A DNA stretch of 64,000 nucleotides, taken from Bacilli bacterium. Its GTDB lineage: Bacteria > Bacillota_I > Bacilli_A > RF39 > UBA660. Shown here piece after piece: positions 4,253 through 25,391 of this stretch. The notes beneath the pieces are model-generated. The model was not told the DNA's origin. It saw nothing but the letters and a program-made list of their open reading frames with translations, and ran no database searches. The first letter of the stretch is position 1; every line of letters starts with the position of its first letter. The stretch spans positions 1-64,000 of the forward strand of contig JAEENX010000013.1 in the NCBI GenBank assembly GCA_016283935.1, given 5' to 3'. The translations under genes were made by a program, and so were the position numbers.

Positions 4253-4279
4253 AAAAAGACCCTATTATAAGGTCTTTTT
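4253..4279 (-). terminator. intrinsic terminator after the lipoprotein operon
   Basis: AAAGACC pairs with GGTCTTT followed by T-rich sequence on the minus strand; the 5' arm overlaps the last codons of the 4265-4576 gene. Confidence 0.75.
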
Positions 4280-4576
4280 AACTTCTGTATCTTGTTCTTG
4301 ATTAATAACACTTTCTGTATCTTTTATTCTTCTATCAGATTCCGAATACTTATTAAAAGTATATAAACTTTCTAAATAAGATCCTAAATATAATCCCATC
4401 ATTGGATAATTACTTACTAAATCATCAAATCCTTTAGATTTCATAAATCCATATAAAGCAATACCAACTAAAGATGCTCCAGTAAAAATTACTTTTTCTC
4501 TTGCATCAAAATGTTCTAATTTTTTACTATTTCTTTTATCCACTCTGTAAGAATTCTTGTTGTTATAAATTTTCAT
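4265..4576 (-). CDS. small hypothetical protein, possibly membrane-associated
   Basis: A 103-residue protein I do not recognise. The N-terminal third is basic and polar; a moderately hydrophobic stretch (about 29-46, VIFTGASLVGIALYGF) and a second weaker one (about 58-72) could contact the membrane. The C-terminus is charged. GAGGAGATAAT before the ATG supports the start. It begins 14 nt after the stop of the upstream lipoprotein gene, so the two are probably cotranscribed, and its last codons (KKT) form one arm of the terminator. Confidence 0.65.
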   Translation of the reverse strand: MKIYNNKNSYRVDKRNSKKLEHFDAREKVIFTGASLVGIALYGFMKSKGFDDLVSNYPMMGLYLGSYLESLYTFNKYSESDRRIKDTESVINQEQDTEVKKTL

Positions 4577-4590
4577 ATTATCTCCTCAAA

Positions 4591-5340
4591 TTATTTAGTT
4601 AATTCTTTTCTTTTACCATTTTTATCATATTCATAAACAGTTCCATCTGATAATGTAATTTTATTATTTACTTCTACAATTAATGTAGATGAAACTGACA
4701 TAGTTCTAATTTCACCAGTTGTATTATCAACAACTATTAAATCAAAGATTGAATCGATTCTATTAGCCCATACTCCACAGCTAAGGAAATCTGATTCTAA
4801 ATATCTTTTTTGTTCTACACTTCCAGATGCACCACTTGAATATCCATAAAAGAACCCAGTAATAAAATCTTTATTTTCTCCTTCAATTTCATTAATTCCA
4901 TAATAAGAAACTGTATCGCTTATTGGGAATCCTAACATTTGAGAATTATGAATTCTATCATCCATAGTATCTTGTTCAATTCCATCAAAAACAGCTTTTG
5001 TAGAAATAATAGATGTATCAGTATGAACATTATCAATAAATACAGATAAATTAGATGGTAATCCAACTGTATATACTTCCATATTTAATTCTTTATCAGA
5101 AGTTATTCTCCATTCTTTTTCTCCTGAAGTATAAATAACTTTTAATTTAAAATCTTCATTATGAACATCTAATAATTGTTCAACTCCTGACATTACATTA
5201 TCAGTATTATTCCCATTAGTAGTACTTAATACATCATATTCAGATACATCTGAACCTAATTCAGAACCACATCCTGTTATTGTTAAAGTTCCTGCCATTA
5301 CTAATGGTAATACTGCTTTGTAAAATTTAATGTTCTTCAT
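4591..5340 (-). CDS. lipoprotein of unknown function
   Basis: A 249-residue predicted lipoprotein: short basic start, hydrophobic signal, and lipobox ITGC with Cys at 24. The rest is a polar extracytoplasmic domain I cannot place; a Gly/Ser-rich turn (GYSSGASGS) lies near 170. GAGGGGG upstream of the ATG gives a strong ribosome binding site. It leads a two-gene unit with 4265-4576 and has a recognisable promoter overlapped by an inverted repeat. No substrate or enzymatic motif is visible. Confidence 0.8.
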   Translation of the reverse strand: MKNIKFYKAVLPLVMAGTLTITGCGSELGSDVSEYDVLSTTNGNNTDNVMSGVEQLLDVHNEDFKLKVIYTSGEKEWRITSDKELNMEVYTVGLPSNLSVFIDNVHTDTSIISTKAVFDGIEQDTMDDRIHNSQMLGFPISDTVSYYGINEIEGENKDFITGFFYGYSSGASGSVEQKRYLESDFLSCGVWANRIDSIFDLIVVDNTTGEIRTMSVSSTLIVEVNNKITLSDGTVYEYDKNGKRKELTK

Positions 5341-6431: not shown

Positions 6432-7157
6432 TTACTTATAATTTACCTTTGTTAAATATAAACCACATGCAGGTGCTGTAACATACCCACATATATTCTT
6501 CTTAGCTTCTAATGTTTTCTTAACTTCTATAGGTTCTATCTTATTTCTACCTACATCAATCAATATACCAACTAAGTTTCTAACCATATATCTATAAAAG
6601 CTTTTACCATCAAATTTAAATTTAATAATATTATCTTTTTTAGATATAGATATCTTATATACTATACTATTATAATTTTCTCTTTCACCAGCAGTAAAAG
6701 CTTCATAAGAATGCATTCCGCATAAATACTTAGCAGCTTTTCTCATTTTACCTATATTAAGAGGTTTATTATAGTTATATATATAATCATTTTTAATAGG
6801 ATTATATTCTCCTACATTTAAATAATATTCATATGTTTTAGAAACGCAATCAAATCTAGCATGAAATTTTTCATCTACTTCTTTAACATAATTAATATAT
6901 ATATAATCATCTAATAAACTATTCATTGCATCTCTTAATCCATCACATGGTATATCATGGCTTAATTCAAAATGAGCTTTTTGATCTAACGCATGAACAC
7001 CTCTATCAGTTCTTCCTGCACCTTTAATAGTAATATCTTCTTTAGATACTTTCTTTAATACTCTTTCAATTTCGCCTTGTACTGTATTTAACTTAGGTTG
7101 TCTTTCAAATCCATAATATTTGGATCCATCATAACTAATACTTACTAAGTATTTCAC
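6432..7157 (-). CDS. truA: tRNA pseudouridine(38-40) synthase TruA
   Basis: Isomerises uridines 38-40 in the anticodon stem of tRNAs. The catalytic motif GAGRTDRGVHA with its Asp is near residues 46-56; SYDGSKYYGFERQP at the N-terminus and the FYRYMVRNLVG motif near the C-terminus complete the fold. The start is GTG with AGGAG 9 nt upstream; the GTGA overlaps the TGA stop of the previous gene, so translation is probably coupled. It is the last gene of a three-gene unit with the two ABC-ATPase-like genes. Confidence 0.97.
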   Translation of the reverse strand: MKYLVSISYDGSKYYGFERQPKLNTVQGEIERVLKKVSKEDITIKGAGRTDRGVHALDQKAHFELSHDIPCDGLRDAMNSLLDDYIYINYVKEVDEKFHARFDCVSKTYEYYLNVGEYNPIKNDYIYNYNKPLNIGKMRKAAKYLCGMHSYEAFTAGERENYNSIVYKISISKKDNIIKFKFDGKSFYRYMVRNLVGILIDVGRNKIEPIEVKKTLEAKKNICGYVTAPACGLYLTKVNYK

Positions 7158-7795
7158 TTTCCAACACTCCTATATATATCCTTTAATAATTCTTTATTAT
7201 CTAATGTAACTTTTAAATCCGCACCTTTTCTATTAGCCATATTAATAAATCTAATAATCTTAGGTTCATCTATTTTAACCGGTTCATCAAACACATCTTT
7301 TAAGAATCCACGATAAACTTCTTTTTTATTGTTAATAACTATTAATTCATCAACTAAACCATCTAAGAATAATAAATCTTTAGTTATAACAATTATATTT
7401 TTATCACTTTTACATAATTCTTTAATTATTTGTTTAATATGTCTTACTTCTTTATAAGACATTCCTACTTCTATATGATCAAATATAATATTATCAATAT
7501 TATTTAATAACACATATGTTAATAATACATATTTAAATGTTACTTTACTAATATCTTTAATCTTATAATTTAATACATTTTTATCTAAATCTAAGAAAGC
7601 AAATATATCATATATTCTTTTATTCATTCTTAAATGTCCACCATTTAAGAATTTAGATACTTTCCATTCATCATCATAATTAATACCATATGTATCAATA
7701 TCATATAAATTTAAATCTAATAAGTCTCCATAAAAACCTACTATCTTTCCATTTCTAAAATCAGCAGGTATCTCTTTTGAATATACTATTTCCAT
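7154..7795 (-). CDS. degenerate ECF-type ABC ATPase (EcfA2-like), no P-loop
   Basis: 213 residues in the place normally held by ecfA2. The C-terminus (IIRFINMANRKGADLKVT...LLKDIYRSV) resembles the EcfA C-terminal domain. The nucleotide-binding motifs are lost: GKIVGFYGDLLDLN stands where the Walker A loop should be, with no GK[ST], and NIIFDHIEV replaces Walker B Asp-Glu. I see no LSGGQ signature. It probably cannot hydrolyse ATP. It overlaps the upstream ATPase gene by 10 nt and truA by 4 nt, and its stop codon is TGA. The uninterrupted frame suggests selection for some retained role. The assignment rests on position plus C-terminal resemblance. Confidence 0.6.
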   Translation of the reverse strand: MEIVYSKEIPADFRNGKIVGFYGDLLDLNLYDIDTYGINYDDEWKVSKFLNGGHLRMNKRIYDIFAFLDLDKNVLNYKIKDISKVTFKYVLLTYVLLNNIDNIIFDHIEVGMSYKEVRHIKQIIKELCKSDKNIIVITKDLLFLDGLVDELIVINNKKEVYRGFLKDVFDEPVKIDEPKIIRFINMANRKGADLKVTLDNKELLKDIYRSVGK

Positions 7796-8535
7796 ATTTT
7801 AGACACCAACTTTCCTTCATCAGTCATTACTTTATCAAGTAAATCATATAATATTAAGTTTTGACTTAAATCAACAACAAATGGTAATTTTAATCCAATA
7901 TATGGCATAATACTATTTCCATTTAAAACAGATTGTACATTCGAATTCATAATTGACTTAAAATTATTCATTACAACTACATTGTCAGCTCTAAGTAAGA
8001 ATTCAGTATTAGTAGTAACATATATTAAACTCATACCTTTTTCTTTTATATAGTCTAATAATTTATCTATTCTTTTATCATCTAAATAACTCATTAAATC
8101 ATCTATAGCTATTATTTTAGGATTAATTATTAAATACGAAAGAATTTTAATCATCATTCTATCTTCCATATATAAACTATCTAAATATTCATGTTCAATC
8201 TTTTCTAATTTAAAGTATTTTAATATATCTTTAATCTTAGTAGTTATTTCAGATGGACTATATCCTAATTCATTTAAATGATAAAATAATTCATCTGTAA
8301 CGGTATCAGTATAATGAATATCATCATCTAATACACATACTAGATTATTTCTTAGGAAATCAATATCATATTCATTAATATTAATATCATCTATATATAA
8401 ATCAGAATTATCTATTTTATTACATAATTTTTTTAATAAAGTTGTTTTACCAGAGTTAGTTGGACCAATAACGGCAGTTATTAATCCATTCAATTCTATA
8501 TCAACATCCATTTTCTTAACTACTAACTTATCCAT
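7786..8535 (-). CDS. divergent ECF-type ABC ATPase (EcfA1-like)
   Basis: 249 residues with an intact Walker A (GPTNSGKTT, 24-32), but a Walker B ending Asp-Asp (IIAIDD) instead of Asp-Glu, and no LSGGQ signature; LYMEDRMMIKIL stands at that position. The tail IGLKLPFVVDLSQNL resembles the EcfA1 C-terminal region. In Firmicutes ecfA1-ecfA2-ecfT precede truA-rplM-rpsI; here the two ATPases are present in degenerate form and EcfT is missing. It may bind ATP, but normal transport cycling is doubtful. GGGGATAAT precedes the ATG. It is first in the operon. Confidence 0.7.
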   Translation of the reverse strand: MDKLVVKKMDVDIELNGLITAVIGPTNSGKTTLLKKLCNKIDNSDLYIDDININEYDIDFLRNNLVCVLDDDIHYTDTVTDELFYHLNELGYSPSEITTKIKDILKYFKLEKIEHEYLDSLYMEDRMMIKILSYLIINPKIIAIDDLMSYLDDKRIDKLLDYIKEKGMSLIYVTTNTEFLLRADNVVVMNNFKSIMNSNVQSVLNGNSIMPYIGLKLPFVVDLSQNLILYDLLDKVMTDEGKLVSKIWK

Positions 8536-8610: not shown

Positions 8611-9475
8611 ATTTATTTTTTATAACTTTAATTATACCAGTTTCTGATTCCTTTTCATGAACTTCTTCACCATAGTTTAAAGCTAGCCCTAAGACGAACA
8701 TATAAGAAACAAAATATAACCATACCATCAGTAATGCTAAATTACTAAGTGATGAATATAGTAAGTTATATGTTGTCATATTTTGAGATGTATAATTATA
8801 AAACATTGTTATTATATACCATCCAACTGATGTAACAAATGCACCAGTTCCAATATTAGTTTTATCTCTTACTCTATCAGGAGCAAAATTATAAAAAACT
8901 CTTAAGAAAATATATATTACAACAATAGTAAATATAGGATAAGCAATTGTATATACATTTATTAACAATCCATATCCTGGTATTTCTTTTAACATCTCTA
9001 ATAAGTTTTGACTAAAGATTGGAAATATTAACATGAATATTATTAATAACACAACCATCATAGTCATGAATATAGCTTTAATTCTTCTTTTTAACCATGT
9101 AGATTGATTAATACCATATATTTGATTAGATATAAGTATTATTGTATTACATCCGTTAGTGGCGATATAAAACATCCATACAAACATTATAATAACACCA
9201 ATACCAATACCACCTTTAAATGTTGGTACTAATAATTCTACTGCACCAGGAATAAATCCTAACATATCTAAAACAGAATCTACTTTAATTTCAAATAAAC
9301 CAGCAATATAAGAAGCAAATGTTACAATTGGAACTAAAGATAAAAGTATAAAGAATGCTAATTGACCAGGAAGAATAGCCATCTCTGGTTTCTTAATAAT
9401 AGACCAAATAGCACTCGAATACTTTTTAAATCTGCTTTTAGCTTTATTAACAAATTTATTAGATTTGTTATTCAT
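8609..9475 (-). CDS. YihY/BrkB-family inner membrane protein
   Basis: Polytopic membrane protein of the YihY (formerly 'ribonuclease BN') family; the molecular function is not established. The 288 residues contain about six membrane segments and the typical LAFFILLSLVPIV and APDRVRDK segments with a hydrophobic C-terminal half. The ATG overlaps the last codons of the upstream GGDEF-like gene by 8 nt, so the two are coupled. Confidence 0.88.
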   Translation of the reverse strand: MNNKSNKFVNKAKSRFKKYSSAIWSIIKKPEMAILPGQLAFFILLSLVPIVTFASYIAGLFEIKVDSVLDMLGFIPGAVELLVPTFKGGIGIGVIIMFVWMFYIATNGCNTIILISNQIYGINQSTWLKRRIKAIFMTMMVVLLIIFMLIFPIFSQNLLEMLKEIPGYGLLINVYTIAYPIFTIVVIYIFLRVFYNFAPDRVRDKTNIGTGAFVTSVGWYIITMFYNYTSQNMTTYNLLYSSLSNLALLMVWLYFVSYMFVLGLALNYGEEVHEKESETGIIKVIKNK

Positions 9476-11501
9476 GTCTATCCTCTTCTAACCCTTTATT
9501 CTCTTTCATCTTAATGTAAGCTTCGTTATAGGCATCTTCAATTAATTTAGTATCATTTTCAATCATACTGAATCCCATAGCTACACCATAATCATGAGGT
9601 AATTTCTTAAATCCTTTAACTAATCTCTTCATGTAAGATAAAACTTGTTTTTCAGAATAACCTACCATATATACAAAGAACTCATTACCATCAGTTCTCA
9701 TTATTTCAGAGTTATCAACTTGAGTACGTATTAATACATTAGAAGCAGCTTGAATTTGTTTATCTCCTTCTTCATGTCCTAATAAGTCATTTAATTCTTT
9801 AACTCTATTACAATCTAAAACTATACAAGCTTGAGGATAAATTCTATTTTTATTCCATACTTTAATCTTTTCATTATAATAATTTCTATTCTTTAATGAA
9901 GTTAATAAATCAATATATTTGATTCTATCTTCTTTCTTAACTTTAGTATCAAGATTTAATCTTCTTCTCTTCTTGAATGTGAAGCCAGATATTACTATAA
10001 CAACAGCAAGTGATATTAAAATACCAAAAGCAATATTTGTAATAAATGTTCCACGTTTGCTTACTTTATTATAAGTAGTAACACCCATTCTAACTAAATC
10101 TGAAGGATCTATAGTTTTAGTATAAGCACTAAATAATCTATAGAATGGATCTTGATCATTTTCATATCTGAATGCATATGTATTATCAGTTAAATATCCT
10201 CTATATCTAACTGAGTAATTATTATTGTTTTTATAAACATAATAAGTAACAACATTTTCATCTAAGATGATAATATGTTCACCTCTTAATAATTTCTTTA
10301 AATCAGAAGTATTCTTATATGTTTTAATAGTAATACCTTCTATTTCTTTAATAGCTTCATATAAATATGAATTTTCTTGAACATATACTTCATGGTTAGA
10401 TAAACCAGATATATTTGTTAAAGATAAATCAATACTATTATCAGCAATTATTTCATAGTTAATTGTATTTAATGCACCAGCATCAATATAATTAGTTGTT
10501 AAATTATAGTAGTTATAATATAAATTAATTTTATTTTCGATAGCAGCTCTAGCTAATTCTTCAGGATTTTTATATTTTTTAAATGTGAATTCAACATTTG
10601 AAAAATTACTGAATGAATGTAAGTATTGAGCTGTAATACCACCATATTCACCACTTGCAAGTATTTCATATGGGGCATTTTCAGCAAATCCATATGTATA
10701 TGTTTTACTTGTCAATTGTGCTTCTTCTGCTTCTGTAATACCTAATTGTTTAACAAATAAATTATAGTTATTTTTATCATATGAAGTAGTAAAATTCTTA
10801 TCTTTCCATGAATTAAAAGTCTTAGTTAAAATACTATTATACATTTCATTATCAGATAATCTAAAATAGTAATATTTATTTAAATCACTTATATGATAAA
10901 TAATATTAACATTATTTGATACTAATTGATCTTTATATTCATTTAACGGAACAATTGCGTATGCAACTTCTCCGTTACCTAATGCTTCAGTAATCGCATT
11001 ATAAGATTCATAAGATTTAAATTGATCTTTAGATACTTCATAATAGTTAGCAACAATATCTAAACTAGTGTTTAATACACCAGCTTTTAATTCTTTAATT
11101 TTAGAACCGTCATTTATAATTCCATTTGTTTTACTAATTAATACATAATGATCTTTGTATAATAATAAACTTTTACTATCCCATGTATTAGAAACATAGA
11201 ATCCATATCCAAATGAATCAGATAAATATGAAATAGTATTTTTATTAATATCTACTTGTAATTCATCACTTAAATAATTAACAAAATCAAAGAATACACC
11301 AGCACCTGTATTACCAAATACTGGTAAATCATTCGGAATTGCTATAGATAATACTTTAGTTTTATTATTATCTAACCATTCTTTTTCTTTTATAGATAAT
11401 GAATTTTCATCTACTAATATATTAAATAATCCAATACCTATTCCTGTTATTACAGCGATAGCTATAATAACGATTATAACCACCTTTTGCCATCTTCTCA
11501 T
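9468..11501 (-). CDS. membrane sensor with tandem solute-binding-like domains and degenerate GGDEF domain
   Basis: 677 residues: an N-terminal membrane segment (about 5-28), two consecutive extracytoplasmic regions resembling bacterial solute-binding (SBP_bac_3/HisK-sensor) domains (about 37-250 and 265-460), a second membrane segment (about 488-508) and a C-terminal GGDEF-type domain (about 530-665). The domain keeps the Asp of VLDCNR and the NDLLGHEEGD motif, but the signature reads DGNEF near 604-608 instead of GGDEF, losing the first Gly and replacing the catalytic acidic residue with Asn. Diguanylate cyclase activity is therefore unlikely; a ligand-sensing or binding role is more plausible. 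AGGTG precedes the ATG. It lies between a one-TM hypothetical gene (20 nt upstream) and yihY. Confidence 0.8.
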   Translation of the reverse strand: MRRWQKVVIIVIIAIAVITGIGIGLFNILVDENSLSIKEKEWLDNNKTKVLSIAIPNDLPVFGNTGAGVFFDFVNYLSDELQVDINKNTISYLSDSFGYGFYVSNTWDSKSLLLYKDHYVLISKTNGIINDGSKIKELKAGVLNTSLDIVANYYEVSKDQFKSYESYNAITEALGNGEVAYAIVPLNEYKDQLVSNNVNIIYHISDLNKYYYFRLSDNEMYNSILTKTFNSWKDKNFTTSYDKNNYNLFVKQLGITEAEEAQLTSKTYTYGFAENAPYEILASGEYGGITAQYLHSFSNFSNVEFTFKKYKNPEELARAAIENKINLYYNYYNLTTNYIDAGALNTINYEIIADNSIDLSLTNISGLSNHEVYVQENSYLYEAIKEIEGITIKTYKNTSDLKKLLRGEHIIILDENVVTYYVYKNNNNYSVRYRGYLTDNTYAFRYENDQDPFYRLFSAYTKTIDPSDLVRMGVTTYNKVSKRGTFITNIAFGILISLAVVIVISGFTFKKRRRLNLDTKVKKEDRIKYIDLLTSLKNRNYYNEKIKVWNKNRIYPQACIVLDCNRVKELNDLLGHEEGDKQIQAASNVLIRTQVDNSEIMRTDGNEFFVYMVGYSEKQVLSYMKRLVKGFKKLPHDYGVAMGFSMIENDTKLIEDAYNEAYIKMKENKGLEEDRHE

Positions 11502-23055: not shown

Positions 23056-23084
23056 ATTTTATAATTTTTTAATAATTTAGTCAA
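23056..23084 (-). promoter_or_regulatory. promoter of the pheST T-box transcript
   Basis: Minus strand TTGACT (23079-23084), 17 nt, TAAAAT (23056-23061). It starts directly after the terminator of the carrier gene. Confidence 0.75.
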
Positions 23085-23085
23085 T

Positions 23086-23111
23086 AAAAAAACTAGGTAG
23101 AACCTAGTTAA
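23086..23111 (-). terminator. intrinsic terminator of the carrier gene
   Basis: AACTAGGT and ACCTAGTT stem with TTTTT on the minus strand. Confidence 0.85.
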
Positions 23112-23118
23112 TTTACTA

Positions 23119-24516
23119 TTATACGTATGCAATTACAGCAAGTACAATTAGTACAACTACAAGTAATGCAAGTAAGAATTTCCAAATAAATTTGAAATAA
23201 TCTTTGAACTTAACATCTAACATAGATAATCCTACTACTAGGACTACACTTGTAGGAGAAATAAATTGAACTAAACCATATCCAGTTTGTAATGCTAAAG
23301 CTGCAACAGTATTATTACCAACAGTAGCTAAATATGAACCACCTAAAGTAATAACATATTGCATATCAACACCAAATATAGATACTAGAACTGATTCTAA
23401 GAACCAAGTAAATACATTTGATCCTAATTTAGCAATTCCACTTATAATATAAGGAATTGTAGGATATACAACTGAAACAATTAAAATTGCATATACAATT
23501 AATAATAATACAACTGTTTTATTAATCTTTTTGAATCCAGCAGCATATGAATCAATAACAGTATCTGCAGGTACTCTATAAACAATTTGTAATACTAATG
23601 TAGCAATGAATAATACACCAGAGATTGTAAATCCATCCCAAGCGCCAAATGGTTGAGCATTTTCACCTAATAATGCACCAAATAATTTAAATCCAAATAC
23701 TTGAGCATCTTTTAAGCTAGTCATCCATTCACTGAATAAAGTAACTTTAAATACATCAGACCATCCGATGAATGCTAATACAACCATTAATAATACTACT
23801 GCTAAAACAATAGCAACAGGTACAGCACTAGCTTTAGTATCTTTTACAGTTTTAGGAGCAAATACATCTTCTAATAAATTATCTTTATCAGTATTGTCAA
23901 TTTTCTTAACAGTATAGAATGATAATAATCCAAGAGCTACAACTGCAATTAATACAATTGGTAGAATCTCAAATACATAATCTAATGCAAATGCACTAAC
24001 AATCATTCCAGCAACTTGAGTACTATATGTAGAACATAATACACCAATTAACATACCACCAACAGTAGCAGCTAATCCAGTTACTTTATCAAACTTCAAT
24101 TTACTGAATACAGTAATTGAAAGTGGTAATAAAGCGATTACTGCCATGAAGTTTGTAGTAATACTTGTTAAAACTGCATAGATAACAATTGATAATACAG
24201 CTAAAACTTTTTCCTTTCCTTTAAATACAGTAGCAATTTTGTTAGTCATTACTTGATATCCAGGAATATTTCCTAAGAATTTGTAGAAACCAGCTACAAC
24301 AAACATAAATATAAAGAATGTTGTAAAATAGTATAATCCTAACATACTGTAAGTAGATAAATCAAAGAATCCAACTCTTGTAATTCCTTGAGTAGTTGAA
24401 TCAAATGCAGTACCAGTAAAATATGTGTAAGGCATGATCCAAGAGAATACTACAGCAAGTAATAAAACTATCATTGCCATTTTGAATAAATCATGTTTTT
24501 CAAAAAATTTCTTCAT
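23119..24516 (-). CDS. DcuC/YfcC-like secondary carrier, substrate unknown
   Basis: 465 residues with about 12 membrane segments arranged as two hydrophobic halves separated by a charged loop near 205-235 (KKIDNTDKDN). The repeated short hydrophobic re-entrant-like segments (LTSITTNFMAVIALLPL and VGNNTVAALALQTGYGLVQF) fit the anaerobic C4-dicarboxylate/YfcC group of the ion-transporter superfamily. The substrate could be a dicarboxylate, amino acid or peptide; the sequence does not decide. A strong ribosome site (AGGAGG) and a TGGTATAAT promoter precede it; it is monocistronic. Confidence 0.7.
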   Translation of the reverse strand: MKKFFEKHDLFKMAMIVLLLAVVFSWIMPYTYFTGTAFDSTTQGITRVGFFDLSTYSMLGLYYFTTFFIFMFVVAGFYKFLGNIPGYQVMTNKIATVFKGKEKVLAVLSIVIYAVLTSITTNFMAVIALLPLSITVFSKLKFDKVTGLAATVGGMLIGVLCSTYSTQVAGMIVSAFALDYVFEILPIVLIAVVALGLLSFYTVKKIDNTDKDNLLEDVFAPKTVKDTKASAVPVAIVLAVVLLMVVLAFIGWSDVFKVTLFSEWMTSLKDAQVFGFKLFGALLGENAQPFGAWDGFTISGVLFIATLVLQIVYRVPADTVIDSYAAGFKKINKTVVLLLIVYAILIVSVVYPTIPYIISGIAKLGSNVFTWFLESVLVSIFGVDMQYVITLGGSYLATVGNNTVAALALQTGYGLVQFISPTSVVLVVGLSMLDVKFKDYFKFIWKFLLALLVVVLIVLAVIAYV

Positions 24517-24536
24517 GTTAAACCTCCTATAACAAA

Positions 24537-24545
24537 ATTATACCA
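24537..24545 (-). promoter_or_regulatory. extended -10 promoter of the carrier gene
   Basis: TGGTATAAT on the minus strand, 21 nt before the ATG. Confidence 0.5.
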
Positions 24546-24564
24546 TAATAAATAAAAAGTGAAT

Positions 24565-24594
24565 AAAAAAATGAGGTAAAAACCTCATTTCTAA
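24565..24594 (-). terminator. intrinsic terminator of the 24591-25391 gene
   Basis: AAATGAGGT and ACCTCATTT form the stem, with TTTT tail on the minus strand, right after the stop. Confidence 0.8.
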
Positions 24595-25391
24595 TATAAT
24601 TTCATAATATTTTCATCGTATACTTTTGCTAAAACTTTCATATTATTTTCTACTTCATTTGTTTTAGTTAAAATAGTTCCAAGTGTTTTAGGAACACAAG
24701 AATTAAATCCATGTATTCTAACATTATATAATATTTCTTCTAATCCATATGACTTTCTTGAATCAGCAAATTCATATCCAAATATTTTTATAAACGGAAT
24801 AACATATTGACCTTCAAGATATTTATATTTTTCACATGTTCTATGGTTAATTACTTTGAATATTTTTCCATCACAGCCAAGTTCAATATTTCTAGGATAT
24901 TTTGTATCTATATATTTTATATATGACGAAACATTATTTTCATGTCCTTTTAAACTATATTCAATTTCACAATCTAATCCATTATCTTTATGTTTTTGTT
25001 TATATACTAAACAATCATTATTATCTGAATCTACTGTTCTAATTAAAAATTCTTCATCAGAATTAATCTTATTAGTCTTTAAAACAAAAGGATATTTTTC
25101 ATGATTAGATTGATCATTATAAATAGTTATACCATCAGTTAATTTAACGCATTCAGGATTCTTATCAGATACATCTAATCCAAATACTCTTATTCCATCT
25201 TCTTTCCTATATGAACATACATATAAATATCCTTCTTCATTTTTTACTCTAGTAAAAAAATATCTAGTACCATCGCAATCAATGAATGCTGGTTCACCAA
25301 GTTCACTAGTCAATCTTAAAACATGATCTAAATAAACTGAAACACTTTCATATGATTCTTCACTTATTTTTTTAAAACTAATATCAGCCAT
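24591..25391 (-). CDS. hypothetical soluble protein
   Basis: 266 residues with no signal or membrane segment. I do not recognise the family. The composition is that of an ordinary globular protein rich in Tyr, Asp and Lys, with several Cys (FIDCDGTRY, YVCSYRKED, LGCDGK, RTCEKY, NSCVPK). AAGGTGGAATT precedes the ATG at 25391. It lies 41 nt downstream of the metallo-beta-lactamase gene, which has its own terminator across the junction. Confidence 0.65.
   Translation of the reverse strand: MADISFKKISEESYESVSVYLDHVLRLTSELGEPAFIDCDGTRYFFTRVKNEEGYLYVCSYRKEDGIRVFGLDVSDKNPECVKLTDGITIYNDQSNHEKYPFVLKTNKINSDEEFLIRTVDSDNNDCLVYKQKHKDNGLDCEIEYSLKGHENNVSSYIKYIDTKYPRNIELGCDGKIFKVINHRTCEKYKYLEGQYVIPFIKIFGYEFADSRKSYGLEEILYNVRIHGFNSCVPKTLGTILTKTNEVENNMKVLAKVYDENIMKLY

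Follow-up and report, generated by a model that had tools for sequence, protein, structure and literature searches.

An EcfA1-EcfA2 pair without EcfT is maintained by selection beside truA in a family of Bacilli, probably for a non-transport role

Results

A degenerate EcfA pair runs directly into truA

The window, by which we mean the whole 64,000-nt stretch of contig JAEENX010000013.1 that was analysed, carries on its minus strand the gene order A1, A2, truA, rplM, rpsI, as read from its open reading frames. A1 and A2 are degenerate relatives of the ECF ATPases EcfA1 and EcfA2. The features of the locus are as follows (T-less pairs are defined below):

7786-8535, minus strand: A1, degenerate EcfA1 relative, 249 aa, which retains Walker A and the C-terminal domain, has Asp in place of the catalytic Glu and has lost the signature (TIGR04520 match, AlphaFold model, matches to solved folds, dN/dS 0.113)
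8440-8466, minus strand: A1 Walker A, GPTNSGKTT, residues 24-32, in the sequence; its Lys is present in 53/58 T-less pairs
8098-8118, minus strand: A1 Walker B, IIAIDD region, in the sequence; Asp145, followed by Asp146 in place of the catalytic Glu
7789-7896, minus strand: end of the A1 C-terminal domain, residues 214-249, GLKLPFVVDLSQNL...LVSKIWK, the best-conserved stretch
7786-7795, minus strand: A1/A2 overlap of 10 nt, ATGGAAATAG, with A1 Trp-Lys-stop and the A2 start on common bases
7154-7795, minus strand: A2, degenerate EcfA2 relative, 213 aa, which has lost Walker A and is shortened in its N-terminal part but retains the C-terminal domain (TIGR04521 match, AlphaFold model, match to a solved fold, dN/dS 0.117)
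7157-7264, minus strand: C-terminal end of A2, residues 178-213, PKIIRFINMANRKGADL...KELLKDIYRSV
7154-7157, minus strand: overlap of the A2 stop and the truA start, 4 nt, from the ORF coordinates
6432-7157, minus strand: truA, tRNA pseudouridine synthase, the downstream anchor gene (Pfam PF01416, 3.7e-32)

Both frames are uninterrupted, and the 4-nt overlap leaves no room for EcfT between A2 and truA. The place of the pair by truA derives from the published ecf operon of Bacilli (PMC8046335). An initial annotation of this DNA had described an EcfA-like pair lying directly before truA-rplM-rpsI without EcfT, in open frames that overlap on to truA; the reading frames, the NCBIfam matches and the EcfT searches reported below bear this out.

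The upstream neighbour of the pair in the window is BrkB. Between rpsI and tilS (4265-5340) lie a 103-aa ORF and a putative 249-aa lipoprotein, the latter without a match in the syntenic locus of the nearest relative, L203. Further away (9468-11501) is a 677-aa membrane protein resembling a periplasmic binding domain in its N-terminal part and a GGDEF (diguanylate cyclase) domain at its C-terminal end, both judged from sequence only.

A1 and A2 are ECF ATPases by descent

The best NCBIfam match of A1 was ECF_ATPase_1 (TIGR04520, 89.6 bits, over the whole length) and that of A2 was ECF_ATPase_2 (TIGR04521, 36.7 bits, residues 57-203 only), both far under the curated equivalog cut-offs of 315 and 330, respectively. 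AlphaFold2, given 15-row alignments of related loci, produced confident models of the ABC-ATPase fold (pLDDT 93 for A1 and 91 for A2), each with a RecA-like core and a helical domain. When these were compared with the PDB using Foldseek, the top matches of A1 were CbiO, EcfA2 and EcfA1 (TMq about 0.83) and that of A2 was the EcfA2 chain of ECF-FolT2 (TMq 0.72). ABCE1/RLI and PhnK were only more distant matches. The ancestors of A1 and A2 were thus the ECF vitamin-transporter ATPases encoded in the Bacilli ecf operon, and the EcfA assignment made initially stands, with no unrelated P-loop family as a better one.

The motifs of the two proteins are also as first described. A1 is the frame that keeps Walker A and has Asp-Asp (145-146) in Walker B. 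In A2 the sequence GKIVGFYGD, which is not a Walker A, stands where that motif is expected, and Walker B reads Asp-His, the His replacing the catalytic Glu. LSGGQ is absent from both; the A2 signature, ISKVT, retains the Ser alone. The EcfA-like C-termini, by contrast with these motifs, are kept and are the best-conserved parts, and the A2 end KELLKDIYRS is invariant across the five closest T-less loci. The window pair therefore does not have the two ATP sites, with Walker A, signature and catalytic Glu, that belong to an ECF module. It is unmistakably built from ECF ATPases, yet it lacks what defines an ECF transporter, namely EcfT and competent ATP sites.

Pairs without EcfT are widespread in the family

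We sampled the DNA upstream of truA in 131 genomes of one family, almost every one from a genus of its own. HMMs derived from 35 intact modules served to classify the ORFs. An A2 relative was present at 121 of the 131 loci and both A1 and A2 at 119. EcfT accompanies 55 of these 119 pairs and a short, eroded EcfT-like membrane ORF another 6; the 58 pairs with neither are referred to here as T-less. A1 and A2 are open frames at all 58 T-less loci. The genomes are metagenome assemblies, and assembly error is unlikely because the same architecture recurs in 58 of them. In nine genomes truA has no recognisable pair beside it (G027, G034, G061, G066, G081, G100, G102, G134 and G144; one further locus is a contig end), so the pair can be lost, although pairs relocated away from truA would be missed by sampling at that gene. 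Within the window's genus, A2 was found in all 8 other re-searched genomes with a truA match, and the pair is retained in many species of genera g88, g45 and g97.

The length of EcfT falls in a series from about 250 aa to 212-228 aa and then to 187-216 aa. At six loci (L102, L113, L158, L185, L187 and L192) EcfT-like membrane ORFs of 187-228 aa lie between A2 and truA; they have lost the middle part with the Ala-Ser-Arg-Gly motif and keep a common C-terminal segment. On a tree of TruA, RplM and RpsI, itself only partly supported, the presence of EcfT changes at least 15-17 times and one large, mostly T-less group includes the window.

The 10-nt A1/A2 overlap is identical in 52/58 T-less pairs and in 58/61 of the others. 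A2 overlaps or abuts truA at 22 of the 58 T-less loci and does neither at 36. Upstream neighbours elsewhere in the family include a short-chain dehydrogenase-like ORF, YvcK-like and WhiA-like ORFs, or runs of small ORFs (names again judged from sequence). A new conserved membrane partner adjoining the pair was considered and rejected, since these neighbours vary.

EcfT has been lost from the genome

EcfT is lost from the window's genome (1.29 Mb, 96.5% complete), which gave no match either to PF02361 or to a family-specific EcfT profile. The latter profile, based on 21 EcfTs from this family with eroded forms among them, does pick up the eroded EcfTs of the controls G092, G008 and G057. It found no match in 24 of the 25 T-less genomes searched, the window's among them, and none of the 58 T-less genomes has a PF02361 match elsewhere. 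The idea of a hidden EcfT elsewhere was rejected on these searches, and so the genome holds no intact ecfAAT module. The one exception to the family-profile result, G126, has an EcfT-like ORF near an S-component match (contig C13, ~23081-24931), away from its T-less truA locus.

The S-component families PF12822 and PF07155 were likewise not found in the window's genome, which is weak evidence because both models are also rare in EcfT-bearing relatives. Even genomes with the full EcfA1-A2-EcfT module rarely match either, and the family may therefore use unrecognised S components or none. We dropped S components as a diagnostic, as these two models are too insensitive in this bacterial family.

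The C-terminal domains and, in most T-less pairs, one composite ATP site outlast the rest

The two proteins of the T-less pairs have eroded differently. A1 retains the Walker A Lys and the Walker B Asp in 53/58 pairs each, the catalytic Glu in only 3/58 and the H-loop His in 1/58. A2 retains the Walker A Lys in 22/58 by alignment column (12/58 by strict motif), the signature Ser/Thr in 55/58, the signature Glu/Asp/Gln in 52/58 and the catalytic Glu in 16/58. The composite site formed by A1 Walker A/B and the A2 signature Ser is present in 43/58 pairs and the opposite site in 8/58, an asymmetry that counts genomes rather than independent events and includes shared ancestry. A test of Walker A and Glu loss against EcfT loss by independent pairs on the TruA/RplM/RpsI tree yielded only 7 supported pairs, too few to separate selection from ancestry. 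Only 2 of the 43 pairs with the A1 Walker A/B plus A2 signature site have the catalytic Glu. Walker A is absent from both proteins in 11/58 T-less pairs, so ATP binding is not universal.

An acidic residue of the Q-loop is found in 24/35 intact modules vs 6/58 T-less pairs for A1, and in 29/35 vs 15/58 for A2. In ECF modules, aspartates of EcfA and EcfA' contact arginines of EcfT (PMC4820897). Since the text of that paper does not give the positions of these aspartates, we infer, rather than locate, an eroded EcfT docking surface in the Q-loop segment.

Near-invariant columns lie mostly in the C-terminal domains: Pro, Phe, Leu, Ser, Leu, Tyr and Trp in A1, and Pro, Phe, Lys, Ile and Tyr in A2. 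In profile numbering, the A1 end of the T-less pairs has Pro in 98%, Phe in 93%, Leu243 in 93%, Ser in 91%, and Leu247 and Tyr in 100%; in A2 the Lys is present in 100% of the 58 and the Tyr in 95%. A1 Trp-Lys and A2 Met-Glu are encoded on common bases of the overlap, ATGGAAATA(A/G), so their conservation is not independent evidence and may reflect start-codon constraint. The smallest pairs (G007, G045 and G088) consist of an A1 of about 150 aa and an A2 of about 185 aa, neither with Walker A. Lengths in genus g88 are 145-151 aa for A1 and 185-187 aa for A2, and in g45 157-158 and 181-186 aa. Despite the loss of Walker A, length, frame and C-terminal motifs are stable over many g88 and g45 species.

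The pair is under purifying selection

We estimated dN/dS by the Nei-Gojobori method, with 95% bootstrap intervals, for four close species pairs; distant comparisons were left out, as their dN/dS was higher for truA too and dS was near saturation. Between the window and L203 the values were 0.113 (0.060-0.189) for A1, 0.117 (0.059-0.224) for A2 and 0.061 for truA. G150 vs G148 gave 0.092, 0.113 and 0.125 for A1, A2 and truA, respectively. Two comparisons involve pairs with no Walker A in either protein: G275 vs G274 (0.124, 0.148 and 0.075) and G160 vs G168 (0.153, 0.143 and 0.176). All upper bounds were below 0.35, and the constraint on A1 and A2 is about the same as that on their working neighbour genes. 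The pair is thus held by selection at the protein level, in the window and in relatives across dozens of genera. The initial annotation had left open whether the pair keeps a non-transport role or began to decay very recently. The frames are not evolving neutrally, and neutral or very recent decay is rejected by dN/dS of 0.09-0.15, including in the two species pairs without Walker A; the retained role is supported by this purifying selection, the 58 T-less pairs and their conserved residues.

Discussion

Judged by the motifs, catalysis in the window pair is crippled and one of its two ATP sites is gone. ECF ATPases are motors for vitamin and metal uptake, and the EcfT-less A1/A2 pair probably serves a different, non-transport job.

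That the pair is a remnant of an ECF module being lost from a reduced genome, under relaxed or no selection, might be suggested by the way EcfT, the Walker motifs and length erode step by step across the family, by the small genomes (about 0.5-1.7 Mb) and by those without the pair beside truA. For the window's lineage, however, dN/dS well below 1 already refutes it, and throughout the T-less loci frames stay open, lengths hold steady within genera and residues are near-invariant across highly divergent copies, all of which makes decay very improbable. Still less credible, to the point of being almost negligible, is that the frames stay open merely to deliver translating ribosomes to truA, with their protein products irrelevant. 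The conserved A1/A2 overlap and the 22 T-less loci at which A2 overlaps or abuts truA would suit such a leader role, whereas at the other 36 A2 does neither; moreover, coupling requires open frames and not conserved amino acids, whereas dN/dS is near 0.11 and internal residues (A1 Lys30, Asp145 and Pro218-Phe219; A2 LLKxIYR) are conserved, pointing to selection on the protein.

Two other explanations grant the proteins a function. The pair could still be a transporter motor, driving an unrecognised membrane subunit encoded elsewhere in the genome, such as another permease or an EcfT that is replaced or extremely diverged. In 6 genera, similar pairs do adjoin eroded EcfT-like ORFs of 187-228 aa, and the ABC-ATPase folds appear intact in the models. 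We nevertheless consider this unlikely: a profile that includes eroded EcfTs finds none in 24 of 25 T-less genomes including the window's, the Q-loop segment is eroded, one ATP site is missing, there is no constant membrane neighbour, and A1 has lost its catalytic Glu in 55/58 pairs, when in a real ECF module the mutation of a single Glu is enough to stop both hydrolysis and transport (PMC10368641). Alternatively, the heterodimer might bind TruA or ribosomal components, possibly co-translationally. The pair lies by truA at 58/58 T-less loci while upstream genes change freely, which is partly by design because loci were sampled at truA. That position goes back to the ancestral ecf operon (PMC8046335), so the linkage is not independent evidence and proves nothing about the target of the pair, and the nine genomes that keep truA with no pair beside it also count against an accessory of this kind. 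We regard it as quite improbable.

The explanation we favour, with somewhat better than even confidence, is that the pair has been repurposed: an EcfA1-A2 heterodimer incapable of transport, which probably works as a scaffold or regulator clamped by ATP without hydrolysing it. By homology, A1 and A2 would still pair through their C-terminal domains as an obligate heterodimer, and their 10-nt translational coupling, which is conserved, would keep their synthesis in step. In most members, including the window, the single composite site of A1 Walker A/B facing the A2 signature would bind ATP and hardly hydrolyse it, ATP serving as a clamp or sensor and not as a power stroke. In an ECF module, Glu-to-Gln in either ATPase abolishes hydrolysis and transport, and the double mutant still closes around ATP (PMC10368641); by analogy, the natural state here may resemble an ATP-closable, non-cycling dimer. 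Such a heterodimer could act as a nucleotide-gated scaffold or regulator on a putative partner. Because the smallest pairs have lost ATP binding, this cannot be the whole function, and in the most reduced members a constitutive heterodimer core alone would be left.

Taken further, and more tentatively, with less than even confidence, these pairs may form a new class of soluble ABC-derived heterodimer running through a whole bacterial family, in which ECF motor subunits became, in several lineages, a scaffold that is gated by ATP without hydrolysing it and in the end does without ATP, and whose cellular role has nothing to do with vitamin uptake. The family, of well over 100 genera, ranges from intact modules, by way of an eroded EcfT, to bare pairs without an ATP site, and the retention of the two soluble subunits by selection along this series implies a second function of the ECF motor pair. 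It offers a natural experiment on the conversion of an ATPase pair into a pseudo-ATPase scaffold, with a bearing on how uncultured Bacilli acquire vitamins.

Comparison with known systems

We found no published report of EcfT-less EcfA pairs in the open-licence literature. Deletion of ecfA1A2T as a block has been described in an Alicyclobacillaceae species in a published survey (PMC8046335), and is a more expected route of module loss than retention of a T-less pair.

With the group II ECF module EcfA1-EcfA2-EcfT, the window pair shares operon position, gene order, the A1/A2 overlap, ABC-ATPase folds, ECF-type C-terminal domains and its best sequence and structure matches. It differs in having no EcfT in the genome, an eroded Q-loop segment, one ATP site lost together with the catalytic Glu and LSGGQ, and no recognisable S component among PF12822 and PF07155. 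Asymmetric sites are also a feature of TM287/288, BmrCD and TAP, heterodimeric ABC proteins with one degenerate ATP site (PMC7756269), and a missing Walker B catalytic Glu has been described as the hallmark of such sites (PMC7544095). Those proteins, however, are transporters, and besides transmembrane domains they have a second site that hydrolyses ATP, whereas the other site of the window pair has lost Walker A and no transmembrane part is present.

Soluble ABC-ATPase dimers that work without a membrane domain are known in ABCE1, SufC and PhnK/PhnL. Unlike the window pair, these keep their full ATPase motifs, and the overall structure matches and best NCBIfam profiles of A1 and A2 lie with the ECF ATPases and not with them.
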